IMG/VR virus record: IMGVR_UViG_3300047175_000036 | Span: 1 to 36,561 of that record | Source: a virus | Reading direction: 5' to 3' (one strand) | Length of the DNA: 36,561 nucleotides | Shown: in pieces, positions 10,281 through 27,019 of the stretch | Layout of the letters: the number at the start of each line of letters is the position of its first letter | Position numbering within the stretch: position 1 is the first letter of the stretch | Notes under the pieces: generated by a model | Database searches by the model: none | What the model was told of the DNA's origin: nothing | What the model saw: only the letters and a program-made list of their open reading frames with translations | Translations under genes and position numbers: made by a program

Positions 10281-10502
10281 ATGGACCAAACAGAGGTTAA
10301 GTGGGAAGCCCCCGAACCCGGTGTCCTCATCCTCGTCAACACAAAGGTCTTCATCATCCACTGCCCCGGTGGCCATCCGTTCCACGTCCACCGGCGAGTG
10401 GAAACGCCTCGGTGCTATGGCTCGTTCGAAACTCTCGACGAGGCCAAAGGCCGGGCCGCGGAAACCGTTGCCGCCTTGCTGGAAATGGGCCTCGACCCAT
10501 GA
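10281..10502 (+). CDS. Hypothetical protein, 73 aa
   Basis: ATG at 10281, five bases after the previous stop; an earlier in-frame ATG at 10251 lies inside the upstream gene. Contains a short strand region (GVLILVNTKVFIIHCPGGHPFHVHR) with Cys and three His residues, then a helix (LDEAKGRAAETVAALLEMG). The His/Cys cluster could bind metal, but the pattern matches no zinc motif I know. Its TGA overlaps the ATG of the polymerase N-terminal gene. Confidence 0.5.
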   Translation: MDQTEVKWEAPEPGVLILVNTKVFIIHCPGGHPFHVHRRVETPRCYGSFETLDEAKGRAAETVAALLEMGLDP

Positions 10503-11638
10503 TCGAAGCTGAACTCGACCTAAGGCCGAAGGAAATGGCTAAGGTTAAGGTCTTAATTGTCGGCGAAGCCTACGGCGCCCGTGAAGCCCTGTTCGAGCAC
10601 CCCTTCGTTGGCGCCTCGGGCCAAGAACTAGGCAAAATGCTATTCGAAGCCGGGCTCTTGCCGCAGGCGCCAGTGACCTATGCCTCGGAACTCGAAATGA
10701 TCGCGTTCTGGCGCAAGGCACAGGCGCAGCACGGTATTGCCATTGCCAATGTGTTCAACGCCCGGCCGCCGGACAACGACATAACCCTGTTCTTCGGCGG
10801 CGCTAAAGACGACGTGGCCAAACATCTGCCGGCCTATGGCCGGGGCAAATGGGTGCGAACCGAACTCGCCCACCACGTTGAAAACCTGTGGCAGACCGTT
10901 CGTGACACCGAACCCAATCTTGTCATTGCCTTCGGCAACACGGCATGTTGGGCCTTGTTGCAGGAAATCAAGATCAGCGCCCTGCGGGGCACGATTAAGC
11001 CAAGCCCCCACCTTGGCGTCAAGGTCCTGCCGACCTATCACCCGGCCGCCGTGTTGCGCCAGTGGAACCTCCGGCCCATCGTCGTCACAGACCTCGAAAA
11101 AGCCGCCACAGAGGCCCAATTCAAAGAAGTCCGTCGGATTGAGCGCTGGCTCACTATCAACCCAACACTTGACGAAATAGCCGAATGGTCCCAGCGCCCG
11201 GCAGACTATTACGCAGTCGATATTGAAAACCCGAAGGTTATGATCGGCGCCAGCCCGAGCTATTTGCATGGCCAAATCGCCATGATTGGCTTCGCCCGTT
11301 CGCCCCACGACGCCCTCGTTATTCCGTTCTTCGACGCTGATCGGCCCGGTGGCAGCTATTGGTCTACGCCGAGGGAAGAAGTCCAAGCTGTTAAATTGGC
11401 CGATGCGCTGCTCAAGCGCCCTGTGCCGAAAATCTTCCAAAACGGTATATATGACCTCACGCACTTGCTTCGCCGGGGTTATCGGCCAACCATGTGCCGC
11501 GAAGACACCATGCTCCTGCACCACGCCCTGTATCCTGAAATGCTCAAAGGTCTCGGCTTCCTTGGCAGCATATATTCCTCGGAAATTGCCTGGAAAACCA
11601 TGAGCGGAAAAGGCAATAACCTCAAGCGGGACGAATAA
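10499..11638 (+). CDS. Split DNA polymerase I, N-part: UDG-like + 3'-5' exonuclease (incomplete)
   Basis: The product has 379 residues. Start is the ATG overlapping the previous stop. Residues 20-190 resemble family 4-type uracil-DNA glycosylases: GEAYG from 22, HPFVGASG, NVFNARPP and a late HPAAVLR with His181. The iron-sulfur cysteines of classic family 4 enzymes are absent. Residues from about 235 start a family A exonuclease domain: Exo I DIE (Asp241, Glu243) and Exo II NGIYD (Asn315, Asp319). The protein stops at WKTMSGKGNNLKRDE before Exo III. The missing motif YNALD begins the gene at 13538, which carries the polymerase domain. UDG-like N-termini on phage PolA enzymes are known, for example in SPO1. 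The two products probably assemble to form one enzyme. Confidence 0.85.
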   Translation: MIEAELDLRPKEMAKVKVLIVGEAYGAREALFEHPFVGASGQELGKMLFEAGLLPQAPVTYASELEMIAFWRKAQAQHGIAIANVFNARPPDNDITLFFGGAKDDVAKHLPAYGRGKWVRTELAHHVENLWQTVRDTEPNLVIAFGNTACWALLQEIKISALRGTIKPSPHLGVKVLPTYHPAAVLRQWNLRPIVVTDLEKAATEAQFKEVRRIERWLTINPTLDEIAEWSQRPADYYAVDIENPKVMIGASPSYLHGQIAMIGFARSPHDALVIPFFDADRPGGSYWSTPREEVQAVKLADALLKRPVPKIFQNGIYDLTHLLRRGYRPTMCREDTMLLHHALYPEMLKGLGFLGSIYSSEIAWKTMSGKGNNLKRDE

Positions 11639-11640
11639 CC

Positions 11641-12015
11641 ATGAGCAACAATCCGCCAGTAATTAAAGCCTACGTCATTGCTTGCGAACCCCTTGGCGTA
11701 TATCTCGGCAACGCCATGGGTATGTCCTTTTGGACCCGGCTTGACACCTGTGGAAACCCCTATGCCGTGGCCTTTGCTACCAAAGACGCCGCTCGCGCTC
11801 ATGTCGCCTCGTGGCTGACCAACAACCATCCCGCCAGCTACCGCTATGTCGAGTGCGAAGCCGACATTATGGGCGACACACTCTTCGCCTCGATCGACCA
11901 GCTCAAAGCCGCCGGCCTCGGCCCCCAACTTTACGACATGGAGGCCCAGGCGGCGAAATACGCCGAGCTTGAGCGGCAGGCTCAAACGGAAAAACAGCAA
12001 GGGAATGTGTTCTGA
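11641..12015 (+). CDS. Hypothetical protein inside the polymerase split, 124 aa
   Basis: Starts two bases after the stop of the exonuclease half and ends in a shared base with the next ATG. Residues 8-75 are beta/alpha with aromatic patches (KAYVIACEPLGVYLGNAMGM, FWTRLDTCG). The C-terminal 40 residues are helical (YDMEAQAAKYAELERQAQTE), ending in GNVF. It has no HNH, GIY-YIG or LAGLIDADG motif, so it does not look like a homing endonuclease that caused the split. Function unknown. Confidence 0.6.
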   Translation: MSNNPPVIKAYVIACEPLGVYLGNAMGMSFWTRLDTCGNPYAVAFATKDAARAHVASWLTNNHPASYRYVECEADIMGDTLFASIDQLKAAGLGPQLYDMEAQAAKYAELERQAQTEKQQGNVF

Positions 12016-12356
12016 TGGAAACCGACGATATACCCACCCACAAATATAGCCTGTGGGTTCCCATGGCCGACTTTGCCGATGTGGCTTGCCTCGGCAAACT
12101 AATAGAGGAAGCCAACGAACTAGCAGGTATTGCTGCTCGGTGCATCATCCAGGGCGGGCTGGATAAAATCGAGCCAGTAACACACAAGCCTAACCGCAGG
12201 GCATTGGAAGACGAAATTGCCGATGTTCTCGCCCTAATTGCCCTCACCACTTCTCGCTTCGGCCTTGATCTTGAAGCTATCGAAAAACGCCGAATTGCAA
12301 AGTTCGACTACAAACTACCTTGGCTTCGGGACCTTGACGAAAGCCTTCGGCCATGA
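12015..12356 (+). CDS. MazG-like nucleotide pyrophosphohydrolase
   Basis: The product has 113 residues, all-alpha. It has the EExxE...ExxD pattern of the MazG/dUTPase-like superfamily: EEANE at residues 31-35 and EDEIADV at 65-71, which coordinate magnesium in the family. Such enzymes cleave NTPs or dNTPs to NMP and pyrophosphate and are frequent in phages. The N-terminal HKYSLWVPMADFADVACLGKL fits the first helix of the fold. It lies inside the 1.9 kb between the polymerase halves, beside a second MazG-like gene. Substrate cannot be told from sequence. Confidence 0.7.
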   Translation: METDDIPTHKYSLWVPMADFADVACLGKLIEEANELAGIAARCIIQGGLDKIEPVTHKPNRRALEDEIADVLALIALTTSRFGLDLEAIEKRRIAKFDYKLPWLRDLDESLRP

Positions 12357-12571
12357 GCGATATACCACCGCCCGCCCCGGTCCAGATGCCCGAGACCAAA
12401 GCCACTGGCCTGCCCGATTGCGGCCAAGCCACGCCATGCCAGATGTCGGAATGCCCTTGGCCCAATTTTGAAATGGGCTATGGCCTTGCCGGCGGCGGCC
12501 TGGGCGTCTATGAGTTCTGCGTCGCTTGCGGCCAGATAGTAAGCAAAACCCTCGATCAAGCCGAAGGATAG
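12353..12571 (+). CDS. Small zinc-ribbon-like protein, 72 aa
   Basis: ATGA overlap with the previous gene. Residues 23-34 contain Cys23, Cys29 and Cys34 (LPDCGQATPCQMSEC), and later CVACGQIV gives a CxxC knuckle. Several cysteines ending in a CxxCG strand suggest a zinc ribbon. The N-terminus is Pro-rich. It could bind nucleic acid or a polymerase subunit, but that is only inferred from the fold. Confidence 0.5.
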   Translation: MSDIPPPAPVQMPETKATGLPDCGQATPCQMSECPWPNFEMGYGLAGGGLGVYEFCVACGQIVSKTLDQAEG

Positions 12572-12628
12572 CGCCATAGTTTAGGTCGGCGGAAAAAGCA
12601 CAAACCCTGAACAAAAAGGAAACGGAAC

Positions 12629-13039
12629 ATGAACGTCTGCATAGCCGACGTATATGCCTTTAACCAAGCCTGCAATGTGCCGATGCGAGACACGCCCGGC
12701 CTCGTCCCTCAGGCTGAGCTTGAACTCGCCATTCGGCTCATTGACGAAGAAGTCAACAAGGAACTGCTACCAACCCTGCGGAACGCGCCGCAGGACCTCG
12801 TCACCGTGGCCGACGCCGCCATCGACTCCATCTACGTCATCACCGGCCTCCTTCTCCGCCTCGGCATACCGGGCCACCTTGTCTGGCAGATAGTCCAGCG
12901 CACTAACATGGCCAAGGTTGACCCCGACACTGGCGAAGTCGTTCGGCGTGCCGATGGCAAAATCCTCAAGCCAGAAGGCTGGCAACCGCCCGAGCCGGCA
13001 ATCAAGCTCTTACTCGAACAAAAGGGATGGAAACCATGA
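12629..13039 (+). CDS. MazG/HisE-like all-alpha NTP pyrophosphohydrolase
   Basis: The product has 136 residues, with AAGGAAAC as RBS. The order VYAFNQACNVPMRDTPG, then RLIDEEVNKEL (Glu40, Glu41, Glu45), then VADAAIDSIYVITG (Asp62, Asp66), then NMAKVDPDTGEV matches phage phosphoribosyl-ATP-pyrophosphohydrolase-like (HisE/MazG fold) proteins. These act on nucleoside triphosphates; a house-cleaning or dNTP-pool role is typical. It is more family-like than its neighbour at 12015, so the polymerase split carries two different members of the fold. Confidence 0.78.
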   Translation: MNVCIADVYAFNQACNVPMRDTPGLVPQAELELAIRLIDEEVNKELLPTLRNAPQDLVTVADAAIDSIYVITGLLLRLGIPGHLVWQIVQRTNMAKVDPDTGEVVRRADGKILKPEGWQPPEPAIKLLLEQKGWKP

Positions 13040-13281
13040 CCGCTTTGAGCGACATTCAGCATGAACTCAACGCCATAATCGCGGACATGGATAGGCTCGC
13101 AAAGCTTTATGCCGACGACAGCAAGCTACTTGTTGCTTCGGCGGAAGCTGAAAATAACCGCCCTTGGTATCGCAAATTTCGCATCACGATGGCCGAGCAT
13201 TTGCGTATTCGGGCGCAAAAGCAATATAACACCAAGTCCGAACTTGACAGCTTCATCAAAAGACTCAGGGAACTAATGTAA
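13036..13281 (+). CDS. Hypothetical helical protein, 81 aa
   Basis: The ATG at 13036 overlaps the previous TGA; an ATG three codons earlier is an alternative. Long helices are predicted (LSDIQHELNAIIADMDRLAKLYA and a C-terminal SELDSFIKRLRELM), with a basic middle (WYRKFRITMAEHLRIRAQKQ). Ends TAATG into the next gene. Function unknown. Confidence 0.5.
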   Translation: MTALSDIQHELNAIIADMDRLAKLYADDSKLLVASAEAENNRPWYRKFRITMAEHLRIRAQKQYNTKSELDSFIKRLRELM

Positions 13282-13532
13282 TGCCAGATGCTCCGATTGA
13301 GGCCGAGTTTCGGGCCAAGATGAACGAACTCGCCATCTATATCGACAAGCTGTTCAACGGCGAAAAGGTTGGCGCTGCCCGTGAAGTCGGCTTCGTCCTG
13401 CTCGTAAGCAAGTTTGGCAACAACAAACGGTGTAATTACCTGTCGAACTGTGAACGGGCCGATACCATTGCCATGATGAAAGAGACAGCGGCTAGGCTCT
13501 CGGGCCAATCACATAAACCAGGAAGGGCCTAA
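13281..13532 (+). CDS. Hypothetical protein, 83 aa
   Basis: Shares a base with the upstream stop. Helical (EFRAKMNELAIYIDKLFNG, then GAAREVGFVLLVSKFG), followed by NNKRCNYLSNCERADTIAMMKETAARL. The second half resembles a small phage protein family with 'G..fallvf.fg....ryvSNa.R..mi..lke'. That family has no known function. It is the last gene before the polymerase domain. Confidence 0.55.
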   Translation: MPDAPIEAEFRAKMNELAIYIDKLFNGEKVGAAREVGFVLLVSKFGNNKRCNYLSNCERADTIAMMKETAARLSGQSHKPGRA

Positions 13533-13537
13533 GCACT

Positions 13538-14995
13538 ATGCTCGTCGGCAGTCATCTACTCGACACAGACACGGGTTCGGAGCAAGCCTACAACGCGCTC
13601 GATTGTTGTTTGACGCATGAAATCTTTCACGAGATTAGTAAACAGCGCCCACAGGCCGAGCCGGCGTATAGCTTCGAACTCGCGCTTCAAGGTCCCGTGC
13701 TCGAAATGATGCTGCGGGGCTGGCGCGTCAACCCCTTTGCTCGCCAGGACGGCATAAACGCCACCAAAGCCCAACTCGCCCGCATGGACCATGTTATCGA
13801 CACCCTTGCTCATGCCGTGTGGGACAAGGGCCTAAACCCAAACTCGGGCCAACAGCTCAAGGAACTATTCTACGGCAGGCTCGGCATACCAGAGATCAAA
13901 GCCTGGGTCAAGGGCGAGTTGAAGTTTCCTATGGACCGGAGCATAATTGAACAGATCGAGGACTATTTTCAAGCCCGGCTGATCGCCGGCTCGGTCCTCC
14001 AGCACCGAGACCTGCAAAAGACCCTCCAGGTTCTCGAAACCGAAGTCGATCCCGATTGGCGGATGCGGACGAGTTATAACATTGGGGGCACAAAGAGTGC
14101 TCGGTTCTCAAGCTCCAAGTCCCCCACGGGCACTGGGACAAATTTACAAAATATCACCGAAAGTCTTCGCCACATCCTAATTCCCGATCCTGGGTTTTAC
14201 CTCTGCGGCATCGACGCCTCGCAAAGCGACAGCCGTATGGTCGGCTTCATGCTCGGCCTATTATTCAACGACTGGACCTATCTTGACGCCTGTGAGTCCG
14301 GCGATTTGCATACCGTCGTGGCCCGAATGACGTGGCCGGAACTGCCCTGGAACGGCGATTTAAAAAAGGACAAAGCTATTGCCGAACAGCCCTTCTACCG
14401 CCACTTCACCTACAGGGATAGTTGTAAAAAGCTCGGCCATGGAACGAACTTCATGGGCAAGGCTCCGACACTGAGCAAGCTCATCCACATCCCGATGGGA
14501 CTCGTGGAGGCGTTTCAGGACAAGTATTTCGAAGGCTTCCCCGCCCTACCAATGTGGCACGCCTGGACCGCTGCCGAGCTTCAGCGCAAGCGCCAACTCG
14601 TCAGTATTCATGGCCGCAAGCGTGACTTTTTCGACCGGACTAATGTGGACGAAACGCTGCGCAAAGGCTTGGCTTTCCTTGCGGCTGCGGCAACGGCCGA
14701 TAATCTCAACCTTGGGATGTGGCGGGTCTGGCGTTACGAACCTGACGTCCAGCTTCTCGGCCAAGTCCACGACGCCATCTACTTCCAAGTGCCACTTGAC
14801 ATTAAACCTCGGGACATAATCCCCCGGATACAGAGCCGGCTGCGCGTCGAGCTTCGCGCTCCCAATGGGCGTGTCTTTGCCGTGCCGACCGAGGCCAAGC
14901 ACGGCATGAATTGGGGCAATTATATTCCTGCGGACGAGGAGAAAGGCACACCAGAACGGAACGTAAATGGTTTGCGTAAATTCAAACCGGAATAG
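13538..14995 (+). CDS. Split DNA polymerase I, C-part: Exo III + polymerase domain
   Basis: The product has 485 residues. It opens with Exo III (YNALD, Tyr18 to Asp22), the piece missing from the gene at 10499. The polymerase domain has motif A GIDASQSDSR (Asp226), motif B RDSCKKLGHGTNF (Arg293, Lys297) and motif C QVHDA (Asp412). Relative to E. coli Pol I, the Glu of motif A is Asp, the Phe762 position is His301, the Tyr766 position is Phe305, and the Glu after the motif C Asp is Ala. The two metal-binding aspartates are kept, so it should be active. No 5' nuclease domain is present, as is usual in phage enzymes. A GGAAGGGCC RBS precedes it. The split leaves each half with incomplete exonuclease sites. 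Confidence 0.88.
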   Translation: MLVGSHLLDTDTGSEQAYNALDCCLTHEIFHEISKQRPQAEPAYSFELALQGPVLEMMLRGWRVNPFARQDGINATKAQLARMDHVIDTLAHAVWDKGLNPNSGQQLKELFYGRLGIPEIKAWVKGELKFPMDRSIIEQIEDYFQARLIAGSVLQHRDLQKTLQVLETEVDPDWRMRTSYNIGGTKSARFSSSKSPTGTGTNLQNITESLRHILIPDPGFYLCGIDASQSDSRMVGFMLGLLFNDWTYLDACESGDLHTVVARMTWPELPWNGDLKKDKAIAEQPFYRHFTYRDSCKKLGHGTNFMGKAPTLSKLIHIPMGLVEAFQDKYFEGFPALPMWHAWTAAELQRKRQLVSIHGRKRDFFDRTNVDETLRKGLAFLAAAATADNLNLGMWRVWRYEPDVQLLGQVHDAIYFQVPLDIKPRDIIPRIQSRLRVELRAPNGRVFAVPTEAKHGMNWGNYIPADEEKGTPERNVNGLRKFKPE

Positions 14996-15004
14996 GACCG
15001 TATT

Positions 15005-16234
15005 TTGGACCAAGGCTATAAACCAGGGACGGGAACATTGGCGTTTGACTTTATCGACAGCTATGTGACGGAGACAAAAGATGTCCCAAGCCCCGAAATC
15101 TACCGCCTTTGGTCCGCCATCACGGCCGTTAGCGGCGCGCTCGAACGAAAGGTCTTCACCACCGGCTCAGCCGGCCCCATTTACCCAAACCTCTTTACAA
15201 TCCTTGTCGGTCCTCCGGCCAGTGGTAAGACTAATGCCATCAAACCGATACGCGATCTGTGGTCTCGTATTAAAGGGTTAAACCTTGCCCCGGACAATGT
15301 GACGAAAGCGGCGTTGATCGACAGCCTAAGCCGAGCCTTGCGCACTATCATCACCAGCACGAGCACGGCCCTAACCTTCAGCGCCATGGCTGTGCCGTGT
15401 TCTGAGTTCGGCATATTCTTCACCCACCATGATCTTGAGTTCCTTTCGGTTCTCAACCACATATACGACAATCCGCCGAGTTATAAGGAAGAACGCCGAA
15501 CCGCCGGCATAATCGAAATCAACAAACCGTATCTCGTCATCCTTGCTGGCACACAACCGGATTTTCTCAGCACATTTTTGCCGGAAGAAGCCTGGGGCAT
15601 GGGCTTCACGTCCCGGCTCATTATGATCTATGCCGACAAGGCCCCGCCCTCAGACCTATTTTCGCGGCGGGAAGTTAAAGCCTCGGCACTTGCCGCCCGG
15701 CTCCTCGAAGTCTTCGAATACAAGGGCGAGTTCCAGTGGACCAAAAACGCCGTCGATGAAATCAACGCTTGGAACACGGCAGGTTGCCCGCCCGCCCCGA
15801 CGCACAGCAAATTGTTCCACTACAACGGCCGCCGAGCGGTCCACGTCATCAAGCTCGCCATGATTAGTGCCGTTAGCCGTTGCACAGGCGAACTCATCGT
15901 CACGGTTGACGATTTCGAACGGGCCAAAGACTGGCTGCTTGATGCCGAGAAAACCATGCCGGACATATTCCGCGCAATGGGCCTAAAATCCGACGCTCAA
16001 CTTATTGCCGACCTACACTATCATCTGTATCGCAAATATAGCAGCGTCGCCATGGACAAACGCAGACCTTTGCCCACGTCGGAAATTTATGAGTTCTTAC
16101 ACACCCGCGTTCCGAGCGACAAGATCGCCCGGCTAATTGACGTGGCAGAAAAGACGGGGTATATACGCCGCGGCACTTATCCCGACGAGTGGGTGCCGCA
16201 GCTCGTGGTTAAAGGAACCTTGGGTAGTGTGTAA
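15005..16234 (+). CDS. P-loop replication ATPase, DUF3987-like
   Basis: The product has 409 residues. TTG start with AGGA about 8 bases upstream, just after the polymerase stop. Walker A is GPPASGKT at residues 69-76, preceded by IYPNLFTILV. The upstream segment SPEIYRLWSAITAVSGALERKVF is typical of DUF3987-like proteins that replace DnaB-type helicases in some phages. A later LVILAGTQPDFL strand could be the sensor. The C-terminal 100 residues read like a winged helix (PTSEIYEFLHTRVPSDKIARLI). It probably acts as the replicative helicase or loader, inferred from its place beside the polymerase. It is the last large gene of the plus-strand arm. Confidence 0.65.
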   Translation: MDQGYKPGTGTLAFDFIDSYVTETKDVPSPEIYRLWSAITAVSGALERKVFTTGSAGPIYPNLFTILVGPPASGKTNAIKPIRDLWSRIKGLNLAPDNVTKAALIDSLSRALRTIITSTSTALTFSAMAVPCSEFGIFFTHHDLEFLSVLNHIYDNPPSYKEERRTAGIIEINKPYLVILAGTQPDFLSTFLPEEAWGMGFTSRLIMIYADKAPPSDLFSRREVKASALAARLLEVFEYKGEFQWTKNAVDEINAWNTAGCPPAPTHSKLFHYNGRRAVHVIKLAMISAVSRCTGELIVTVDDFERAKDWLLDAEKTMPDIFRAMGLKSDAQLIADLHYHLYRKYSSVAMDKRRPLPTSEIYEFLHTRVPSDKIARLIDVAEKTGYIRRGTYPDEWVPQLVVKGTLGSV

Positions 16235-22230: not shown

Positions 22231-23949
22231 TCACAACCACGGACTCGCCCGAAACCGCAGGCTTGGCACGGTCCAACGGTTTTTACTATATTCCTCAAAG
22301 TCCTGTTCGTCTTCGGTCCAACGGCAAAGATACGAAAACGTAAACGTTAAGGCGATCGTAGCGCCTGCGGCCGGCGCCAGGGCCACTCCATTCGCGTTGA
22401 TGAACAAAAGTCTATTTCGGCTAAACGTATAGGTCCCAGCAGCTTGTAATGTGCCGTTGACATAAACGGCTTGAATACTGGTAATTAACCCCACGGGCAC
22501 AAGGGTTGCTTGGGCGCCCAGGCCGTAGGTGGCAAAGACGGGAAACTGATACGTTGTGCCATCACCTACGCCGATGCTTTGCTCACTCCTACTATTGTCC
22601 CATGGGCAGTTGAAGGCAAAAACCCCGGTCTGGCCATACATGCTGAGCCAAAGGCCGACGAGGGCTTGAAACTGCGTATAGCCCGCGAACGCCGCAAACG
22701 GTGTTTGGTTCTGCGTCTGGTCCTTCAACTGTTCGAATTTGATTTCAATGTCCCATATCGCATACGTCTGTTGCGGCACCCGCATCTCGCGCAAATTCTT
22801 TGTCGTGCCAATTATCGTGTCGAGCACCGGGCTGACCTTGATTGGAAAACCCTCGGGCAGAGACGGAAACGTCGGTATAACCCCGCCGGTGTTAACCCCC
22901 GGAACGTAGAGGGCCAAGGTCTTACGCACGAGCCCGGCGGCTTTCAACCTAACGGTAGAACTGCTTTCAACACTCCAAACCTCAGATATTGCCGTGTTGT
23001 CGCTTAGGGCGGCGTAAAAGTTGCCGAGAATTGTATAGCTGTCCGAACTGCCGATATTGTCGCCCAAGGTAACAATTTGACCTTTGTTCACGGTCAAAGC
23101 ATCGGACGTTGTCGCAATATCGGCTAGAACCCCAACTGGCGGCGGAACCAAAATGGGCGTTAGCCTAGCCCGAGTGCTGCGCAAAACTACCGGATCGGCT
23201 ACTAACTGTCTCTGGTCCCATGCGGCAATGGGAGACTTGCCGCTCACTACTATCGGCGGCGCGCCAGACGTCAGGACGTCAAATAGCGCTGCGCCCGACT
23301 GGGCATTGCCTTGGGTGCTACCCCAGGTTATCGTCGCATTGTTTAGAGTCGAACTCAGGCCCTCGTATGCTGCACCAAGCTGGGCGAAATTCGTCCCGCC
23401 ACTATTGCTGACATAGCCCAGGGCCGTGTAGCCTGTCGGCACAGTGCCGAGCGAGGTCCAAGCACTAGCATTGCCACAGGCGAAGATGGCGAAATCATTC
23501 GCATTTGTCGTGCTAATACCCGTAAAGCTAGGGGTCCAAGCTGCGCTCGGCGCATGGAGCTTCTTCGAAGGCAGACTCGCATTGCTGTCCCAAGGCGAAG
23601 CCGTATAGCAGCCATTGACGCCAAAGGCCAAAATCGCTGCGTCATCATAGGTCGAGGCCCAGCTAACGGTAATCACTTCGGCCGTCAAGGCACTCGGAGC
23701 CACGGCCCACCAGAGTTCCATCTGGTTCAACGGTGCCGTGCTACCGCTGCCGCCGTTGCTCGTGCGTTTTGTAAAGGTCAGCCCTGACGCGGTGATTGAT
23801 GACACGGCCGGAGCATTGCCACTAACTATCTCCACATAGGTCAGAACGCAAATGACATCATTTCCGCCCGAGGTCGTGAGCGTAGCAGTCGCACTGCCGC
23901 TTGCGCTCTTTATCCCCGTAGCCGTGCCATCAAGCGTCGGTGTAGCCAA
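22231..23949 (-). CDS. Adhesin-like domain fused to DUF2460 (copy B)
   Basis: The product has 572 residues. Start is a TTG preceded by AAGG. The N-terminal ~240 residues are Ser/Thr/Gly-rich beta structure (TASGLTFTKRTS ... MELWWAVAPSALTAEVITVSW), like stand-alone phage receptor-binding or tail-decoration domains. A Pro/Arg linker follows. The C-terminal ~210 residues are DUF2460: GTTKNLREMRVPQQTY, DQTQNQTPF, YGQTGVFAFNCPWDNSR, and the end FRASPWL. They are close to copy C at 26114. A tail-tip component that adds a receptor-contact domain is the likely role. Confidence 0.75.
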   Translation of the reverse strand: MATPTLDGTATGIKSASGSATATLTTSGGNDVICVLTYVEIVSGNAPAVSSITASGLTFTKRTSNGGSGSTAPLNQMELWWAVAPSALTAEVITVSWASTYDDAAILAFGVNGCYTASPWDSNASLPSKKLHAPSAAWTPSFTGISTTNANDFAIFACGNASAWTSLGTVPTGYTALGYVSNSGGTNFAQLGAAYEGLSSTLNNATITWGSTQGNAQSGAALFDVLTSGAPPIVVSGKSPIAAWDQRQLVADPVVLRSTRARLTPILVPPPVGVLADIATTSDALTVNKGQIVTLGDNIGSSDSYTILGNFYAALSDNTAISEVWSVESSSTVRLKAAGLVRKTLALYVPGVNTGGVIPTFPSLPEGFPIKVSPVLDTIIGTTKNLREMRVPQQTYAIWDIEIKFEQLKDQTQNQTPFAAFAGYTQFQALVGLWLSMYGQTGVFAFNCPWDNSRSEQSIGVGDGTTYQFPVFATYGLGAQATLVPVGLITSIQAVYVNGTLQAAGTYTFSRNRLLFINANGVALAPAAGATIALTFTFSYLCRWTEDEQDFEEYSKNRWTVPSLRFRASPWL

Positions 23950-26113: not shown

Positions 26114-27019
26114 TTACAACGTCAGCCATGGACTTGCTCTCATCTTCAAGCTGCCGATGGTCCAGCGGTTTTTGGCAAACTCCTCGGTGTCTTGCTCGTC
26201 GGCCACAAAACGGCAAAGGTAATAGAAGGTGAAGGTTGCTGTAAGGCTTGCGCCGTTGGCCGGTGGCAGCGGCTCTGCATCCGTGGGCTGAAACACGATC
26301 TGATTTCGCGTAACGTAGTATCGACTCGGATCGACAAGCACGTTGTTGATATAAACCTCGGCCACTTGGTTCAGCATACCCACGGGCAAAAGCAGCGCTT
26401 GGGCATTTAACCCAAAGGTATAATAGACCGTAAAGGCCCAGGTGACACCGTCACCCGAGCCAAAGTATTGGTTCGCCCGGCTGTTGTCCCACGGACAATC
26501 AAACCCAAATACGCCCGTTTGGCCATACATGAACAGCCAATCTTGCACGACTTGCTGATACTGTGTATAACCCGAAAAGGGCGCATACGGCGTTTCATTT
26601 TGCGTTTGGTCTTTTAGCTCTTCGTATAGGATTTCGATGTCAAATATCGGATAAATTTGCTGTGGCGCCCTCATCTCGCGTAAAGATTTCGTCGTTCCCA
26701 CCACGGTATCCATCACTAGGCTGACCTTGACCGCAAAGCCGGGCGGTGGGGCTGGCAAGATCGGCGTGACACTTGGCGGCACGTTAAGCACGGGAATAGG
26801 TCCCGAGGCGTCCACGGTAACGGCATAATCGTCCGCCCCTGGCTCCGTGCTCGGCGGCAGATACAAGCCCAAAACTTCTCGCACAAGGCCGCCGACAATA
26901 ACCCCATAAACCACGGTCTGGGAACATAGGGTTTCGCGCACAAGGCCGCCGACTTGCAGCCCGGCCCCTCCGACCAGCCCTTGGCGAACTAGAGCGCCGA
27001 TCTCCACACTTGCACTCAT
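26114..27019 (-). CDS. DUF2460 tail protein (copy C)
   Basis: The product has 301 residues. The N-terminal 50 residues contain three GxLVRxxL repeats (GALVRQGL, GGLVRETL, GGLVREVL), a motif that may assemble on a partner. The rest is DUF2460: GTTKSLREMRAPQQ, DQTQNETPY, MYGQTGVFGFDCPWDNSR, C-terminus MRASPWLTL. The domain is strikingly close to copy B at 22231, so one arose by recent duplication. It lacks the N-terminal adhesin domain of copy B and instead sits next to a separate adhesin-like protein. Confidence 0.75.
   Translation of the reverse strand: MSASVEIGALVRQGLVGGAGLQVGGLVRETLCSQTVVYGVIVGGLVREVLGLYLPPSTEPGADDYAVTVDASGPIPVLNVPPSVTPILPAPPPGFAVKVSLVMDTVVGTTKSLREMRAPQQIYPIFDIEILYEELKDQTQNETPYAPFSGYTQYQQVVQDWLFMYGQTGVFGFDCPWDNSRANQYFGSGDGVTWAFTVYYTFGLNAQALLLPVGMLNQVAEVYINNVLVDPSRYYVTRNQIVFQPTDAEPLPPANGASLTATFTFYYLCRFVADEQDTEEFAKNRWTIGSLKMRASPWLTL

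Follow-up and report, generated by a model that had tools for sequence, protein, structure and literature searches.

A two-gene family A DNA polymerase, divided between Exo II and Exo III, in a large clade of bacterial viruses

Phage replication polymerases divided between two genes have been described before. In the T4-like Aeromonas phages 25 and 44RR, the family B polymerase is split as gp43A/43B; in phage 25, a homing endonuclease gene accompanies the split, and the 43A and 43B proteins purify together and are active as a polymerase (PMC2988022). Most members of the MEP401-type group of OM43 phages encode a family A polymerase in two open reading frames (ORFs) with a small ORF between them; this cut lies inside the polymerase domain, so that the first protein holds the whole exonuclease domain, and the authors suspected an intron (PMC10580990). 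A stand-alone Pol I 3'-5' exonuclease of metagenomic origin, ExnV1 (PDB 7r0t), keeps the residue matching Klenow Asp501 in Exo III and a complete active site, and its authors see in it a truncated gene (PMC9629493). Here, we describe a new variation on the theme of 43A/43B and the MEP401-type PolA: in the IMG/VR virus record IMGVR_UViG_3300047175_000036, analysed over its whole stretch of 36,561 nucleotides (hereafter, the window), two separate genes encode a family A DNA polymerase, with the cut falling between Exo II and Exo III. No published description of this split was found in the literature searched, most subscription journals lying outside the search.

The two genes are as follows:
10499..11638, + strand: N half, 379 residues; uracil-DNA glycosylase (UDG)-like domain, Exo I and Exo II; stop codon at 11636-11638.
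13538..14995, + strand: C half, 485 residues; Exo III, then a thumb/palm/fingers polymerase.

Both had been proposed in a first-pass annotation of this DNA, and the ORFs and motifs agree with its description of each. The N half carries the UDG-like domain, Exo I (D241/E243) and Exo II (N315/D319) and ends in KRDE (its new C-terminus reads NLKRDE); it starts at ATG 10499, an alternative ATG at 10535 being likewise compatible with the relatives. The C half opens with Exo III, whose residues Y18/D22 lie near its N-terminus, followed by the polymerase motifs A (D226), B (R293/K297) and C (D412). The N half matches Pfam UDG (1.1e-17) and the N-terminal part of the PHROG 17 DNA polymerase (7.7e-21), and the C half matches Pfam DNA_pol_A (9.3e-21) and covers the rest of PHROG 17. 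Compared with family 4 UDGs, the N-terminal domain retains the HP motif and the fold, with scores under the NCBIfam cut-offs. Taken over both halves, palm motifs A, B and C with their catalytic aspartates are present, as are Exo I, II and III across the two chains; the enzyme is not a single polypeptide, its ORFs lying 1.9 kb apart. The annotation had further held that the pieces rejoin seamlessly, which is not the case: about 30 residues separate the conserved WK and YN, compared with roughly 13-24 in most intact relatives, and both new ends are therefore somewhat extended.

Like 43A/43B, this is a replicative phage polymerase made as two neighbouring cistrons with complementary parts, but 43A/43B belong to family B and occur in few phages, whereas the enzyme described here, known from sequence, is of family A and its Exo II/Exo III cut is fixed across a large clade. 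The MEP401-type shares with it the split of a family A enzyme with an intervening ORF and differs in the site of the cut; Vibrio phage vB_VspS_VS-ABTNL-3 (L006; L numbers denote loci of our survey), also cut in the polymerase domain, resembles that type. By fold search, the N half resembles ExnV1 but, unlike it, has no Exo III. Among intact forms, the UDG-exonuclease-polymerase of Microcystis phage Mel-JY34 (MW202489; PHROG 17) has the domain order of the split pair, similar neighbours (a DNA methyltransferase upstream and DUF3987 downstream) and a His at the position equivalent to 762 of E. coli Pol I; enzymes of this type are single chains placed across the deepest supported branch from the split clade.

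What had first looked like an oddity of this genome is shared by 237 loci. Relatives were gathered using as queries both halves, alignments of both, an alignment of intact forms (A7) and a Kuura-centred alignment (A8); a DNA-level search gave nothing useful. The profile searches returned 340 loci, 239 of them split, 84 in one ORF and 17 partial, and leaving out two other split cases (L005 and L202) gave the 237 split loci, representing 178 distinct pairs. In all 178, the N half lies upstream of the C half on the same strand, the scan covering only the strand of the match. The gap, counted up to where the profile match begins, ranges from -3 to 4,644 nucleotides: it is at most 20 nucleotides in 28 pairs and at least 100 in 147, and stop/start overlaps of the TGATG/ATGA type join the halves in L013, L014, L086, L082 and others. 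Caulobacter phage Kuura (L002), the only isolated phage found in the split clade, has its N half annotated as 'hypothetical protein', and no mention of the split was found in the Kuura paper. The annotation's reading, a family A enzyme severed between Exo II and Exo III, is supported by the motifs and by the survey of intact versus split forms that it had called for. The split defines a large clade, from which the intact forms stand apart. Within C halves of relatives, the frame changes in L021/L103 and the gene breaks into overlapping ORFs in L167, which could reflect sequencing error or further breakage.

The phylogeny was reconstructed from 114 representatives (75 split, 37 intact, L202 and L007). 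The 75 split representatives form one clade (Shimodaira-Hasegawa-like approximate likelihood ratio test, SH-aLRT, 100), while the 37 intact forms and L202 branch on the opposite side of the tree (SH-aLRT 97) and L007 forms a long outgroup branch. The split thus had a single deep origin in the main clade, and it is old and stable. Its polarity, from intact to split, rests on the single-chain form being general for family A enzymes. A recent rearrangement, which would have undermined the annotation's reading, is contradicted by the tree because intact relatives are confined to the other side of a deep branch. In an earlier tree of 93 split clusters, abutting and inserted arrangements switch at least 12 times. 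The exception on the intact side is L202. It is placed beside the intact L208 in the tree, and its reading frame is interrupted by a stop codon at the same Exo II/Exo III loop (L202:3200-3300); GGAGG lies just upstream of this stop, and an ATG follows shortly (GGAGGATAACCCATG). Apparently, this is a second, independent cut at the same loop, although in a single contig where sequencing error is possible, and fission at this spot would then apparently have happened at least twice. Other cuts also occur: in L005 (MW202554.1, 1850-4361) the first protein ends after Exo III and the second starts with the polymerase part, and L030:2875-6476 has three ORFs (UDG-like, Exo I-II and Exo III-polymerase) with an extra ORF between the first two.

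Evidence that the enzyme may still be working comes from both halves. Residue conservation was scored on 93 split clusters below 90% identity, where the Exo I D and E, the Exo II N and the Exo III Y and D are each present in 93/93, as are the motif A D, the motif B R and K and the motif C D of the polymerase; the Exo II D is found in 92/93, the sole exception being a D-to-E change. Without contact between the halves, such an invariant half active site on each protein would be difficult to account for. The ratios of nonsynonymous to synonymous substitution rates (dN/dS) against the relative L011 are 0.12 for the N half and 0.05 for the C half, and both are under purifying selection. A second intact polymerase elsewhere in the genome, which would also have spoken against the annotation's reading, was not found: the window yielded no second PolA, PolB and PolC were looked for without success in it and in 30 related records, and across these 31 records PF00476 is matched at one place per record, or in two pieces of the same gene. 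In the polymerase part, alignment by eye places C-half H301 opposite Phe762 of E. coli Pol I, and His occupies this position in 92/93 split clusters; motif C in these clusters reads HD[AS], not HDE.

The gap between the halves (11639-13537) spans 1,899 nucleotides and, as the annotation had stated, holds six small genes, all on the same strand as the halves:
11641..12015, + strand: gap ORF 1, function not assigned; 124 residues; no family match; 79% identity to L011, dN/dS 0.16.
12015..12356, + strand: gap ORF 2, MazG-like nucleotide pyrophosphohydrolase; 113 residues; PHROG 4856, 1.7e-14.
12353..12571, + strand: gap ORF 3, function not assigned; 72 residues; 71% identity to L011, dN/dS 0.19.
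12629..13039, + strand: gap ORF 4, PRA-PH/MazG-like pyrophosphohydrolase; 136 residues; PHROG 671, 2.5e-27; Pfam PRA-PH.
13027..13281, + strand: gap ORF 5, function not assigned; 84 residues; 62% identity to L011.
13281..13532, + strand: gap ORF 6, function not assigned; 83 residues; PHROG 35296, 1.4e-19; dN/dS 0.10 against L011.

These are real genes, because L011 keeps all six in order at 62-79% amino acid identity with dN/dS of 0.10-0.32. They are variable cargo, which differs among relatives: homologues of gap ORF 2 are present in the gaps of L017, L018 and L011, DUF1937 is the most frequent gap family (19/93 split clusters), followed by MazG-like genes (6), and dCTP deaminase-like genes also occur. 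The annotation saw no intein, homing endonuclease or intron here. This stands for the window's gap, where a Pfam scan found no intein or homing-endonuclease domain and Rfam gave no intron match, but not for the clade, since HNH_3 endonucleases of two families lie in the gaps of 10/93 relatives, none of them abutting forms. These HNH genes are compatible with a part of homing endonucleases in the fission or with their later arrival, scenarios discussed for T4-like phages (PMC2988022), although the abutting forms, which have no insert at all, show that an endonuclease is not needed to keep the split. A link to Z-genomes (DpoZ), prompted by the MazG-like genes and weak DpoZ matches, was rejected, as PurZ-type adenylosuccinate synthetase (PF00709) was absent from searches of the window, an incomplete record, and of 20 related records.

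We consider it highly probable that this arrangement arose by gene fission in the Exo II/Exo III loop and that the two chains come together as a single polymerase, whose proofreading site is built from both. The cut lies inside the proofreading site, so the two proteins must come together to proofread. An ancestral UDG-exonuclease-polymerase, a replicative family A phage enzyme, would have split in the loop, the two cistrons staying co-directional and, at first or repeatedly, abutting and stop/start-coupled, while MazG-like, DUF1937, HNH endonuclease and other genes entered and left the junction. In the proposed heterodimer, the polymerase chain would place its N-terminal Exo III helix, non-covalently, against the exonuclease sheet of the other chain; this would complete the metal-binding site, and the pair would both polymerize and proofread. 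That the halves are translated as two stable chains, associate physically and proofread is what we infer from the conservation above and from the analyses that follow.

AlphaFold2 was run on each chain singly, leaving the Kuura row out of the alignment, and gave confident models, with predicted local distance difference test scores (pLDDT) of 93.3 for the C half and 92.0 for the N half. The C-half model places the Exo III helix at residues 15-34, its first ~20 residues being less confident (63-68), and the N-half model has a well-folded exonuclease core with its last 8 residues below 50. In Foldseek searches, the N half retrieved family 4 UDGs, then ExnV1 and Klenow, and the C half retrieved the Bst, Taq and Klenow Pol I structures. 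The new ends are themselves conserved, the N half ending in K[RK][DE][DE] (with K at -4 in 164/178 pairs) and the C half often starting with M-[KR]-I-I-x-T. Direct-coupling analysis (DCA) recovered the inter-chain pairs N264-C23, N239-C27, N340-C30, N341-C33 and N335-C34, which would roughly set one side of the Exo III helix facing strands and one helix in the core of the exonuclease. Among the top 20 inter-chain pairs, 8 include a C-half residue no higher than 50, against 3.3 expected (p about 0.012), and the strong scores are lost in mispaired controls. We take this weak co-variation support as no more than suggestive.

Several points weigh against this explanation. The DCA signal is modest (effective number of sequences about 123), its mispaired control strips shared ancestry along with pairing, and several top pairs fall outside the expected interface. 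The structural models cover the chains one at a time, and the invariant exonuclease residues might instead reflect a structural or DNA-binding role. The survey was seeded mostly with split sequences and took the best 80 loci per scan, and the window comes from a linear, probably incomplete record.

A further idea, which we regard as doubtful, is that the split has been retained for its usefulness: a polymerase chain able to work without proofreading would be served by a detachable proofreading subunit, the UDG/exonuclease chain, whose amount or timing, set by the inserted genes and signals, would tune replication fidelity. It is improbable that the halves are independent proteins with no joint active site, in which case the N half would be a stand-alone accessory (or DNA-binding) factor resembling a UDG/exonuclease, and the C half would be a polymerase deficient in exonuclease. 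Each half does model well alone (N half, pLDDT 92; the C-half polymerase likewise), and ExnV1 indicates that a stand-alone Pol I exonuclease can be stable, though ExnV1 keeps Exo III. The N half, however, lacks the Exo III Y/D of the metal site and yet has nearly invariant Exo I/II residues, the orphan Exo III Y and D are kept in the C half in 93/93 clusters with no evident use in an exonuclease-less polymerase, and the N half is always upstream of the C half on the same strand, within 4.7 kb.

That a full-length protein is still made, through RNA trans-splicing, a split intein, or ribosome hopping or frameshifting, seems very improbable. Phages are known in which split inteins join the parts of a fractured gene, and intein-like inserts exist within the C halves of some relatives: L015:5947-8400 (same record as L107) has two, one running from CLSGDTEILT to ITGN (before S) after RW and the other from CLTEDHEVLT to VTGN (before S) in motif B, and large in-frame C-half inserts also occur in L108, L154 and L169/L170. 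Nevertheless, the junction ends carry no intein sequence on either side, no intein halves were found at these ends in the window or in the inspected relatives, a group I/II intron is rejected for lack of an Rfam match in the gap, abutting relatives have no sequence between the halves to host an intron, and the six intervening genes rule out hopping or recoding in the window. An assembly rearrangement, sequencing error or pseudogene decay, suggested by the single, linear and unfinished metagenomic record, is the least credible of all and is rejected, given that other, independent contigs and an isolate, phage Kuura, show the same split and that dN/dS indicates purifying selection on both halves.

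Next to the C half lies a gene that adjoins it downstream in most relatives, in conserved synteny:
15005..16234, + strand: DUF3987/primase-helicase-like gene; PHROG 14296 DNA primase, 4.7e-49.
Elsewhere, the window encodes a tape measure protein, and the phage is therefore tailed; two genes of the structural module (22231-23949 and 26114-27019, - strand) match PHROG 2913 glycoside hydrolase.

For annotation, these observations call for caution, as domain-based calls take the C half for a complete DNA polymerase and leave the N half a 'hypothetical protein', as happened in Kuura. The abutting, inserted, apparently re-split (L202) and three-piece (L030) forms make the fission of an essential enzyme directly testable in this large, mostly uncultured group of bacterial viruses. 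If the halves assemble, the replicative family A polymerase of this clade would have an exonuclease active site that is complemented in trans, natural and fixed long ago, and would offer a ready-made two-part polymerase with separable proofreading.
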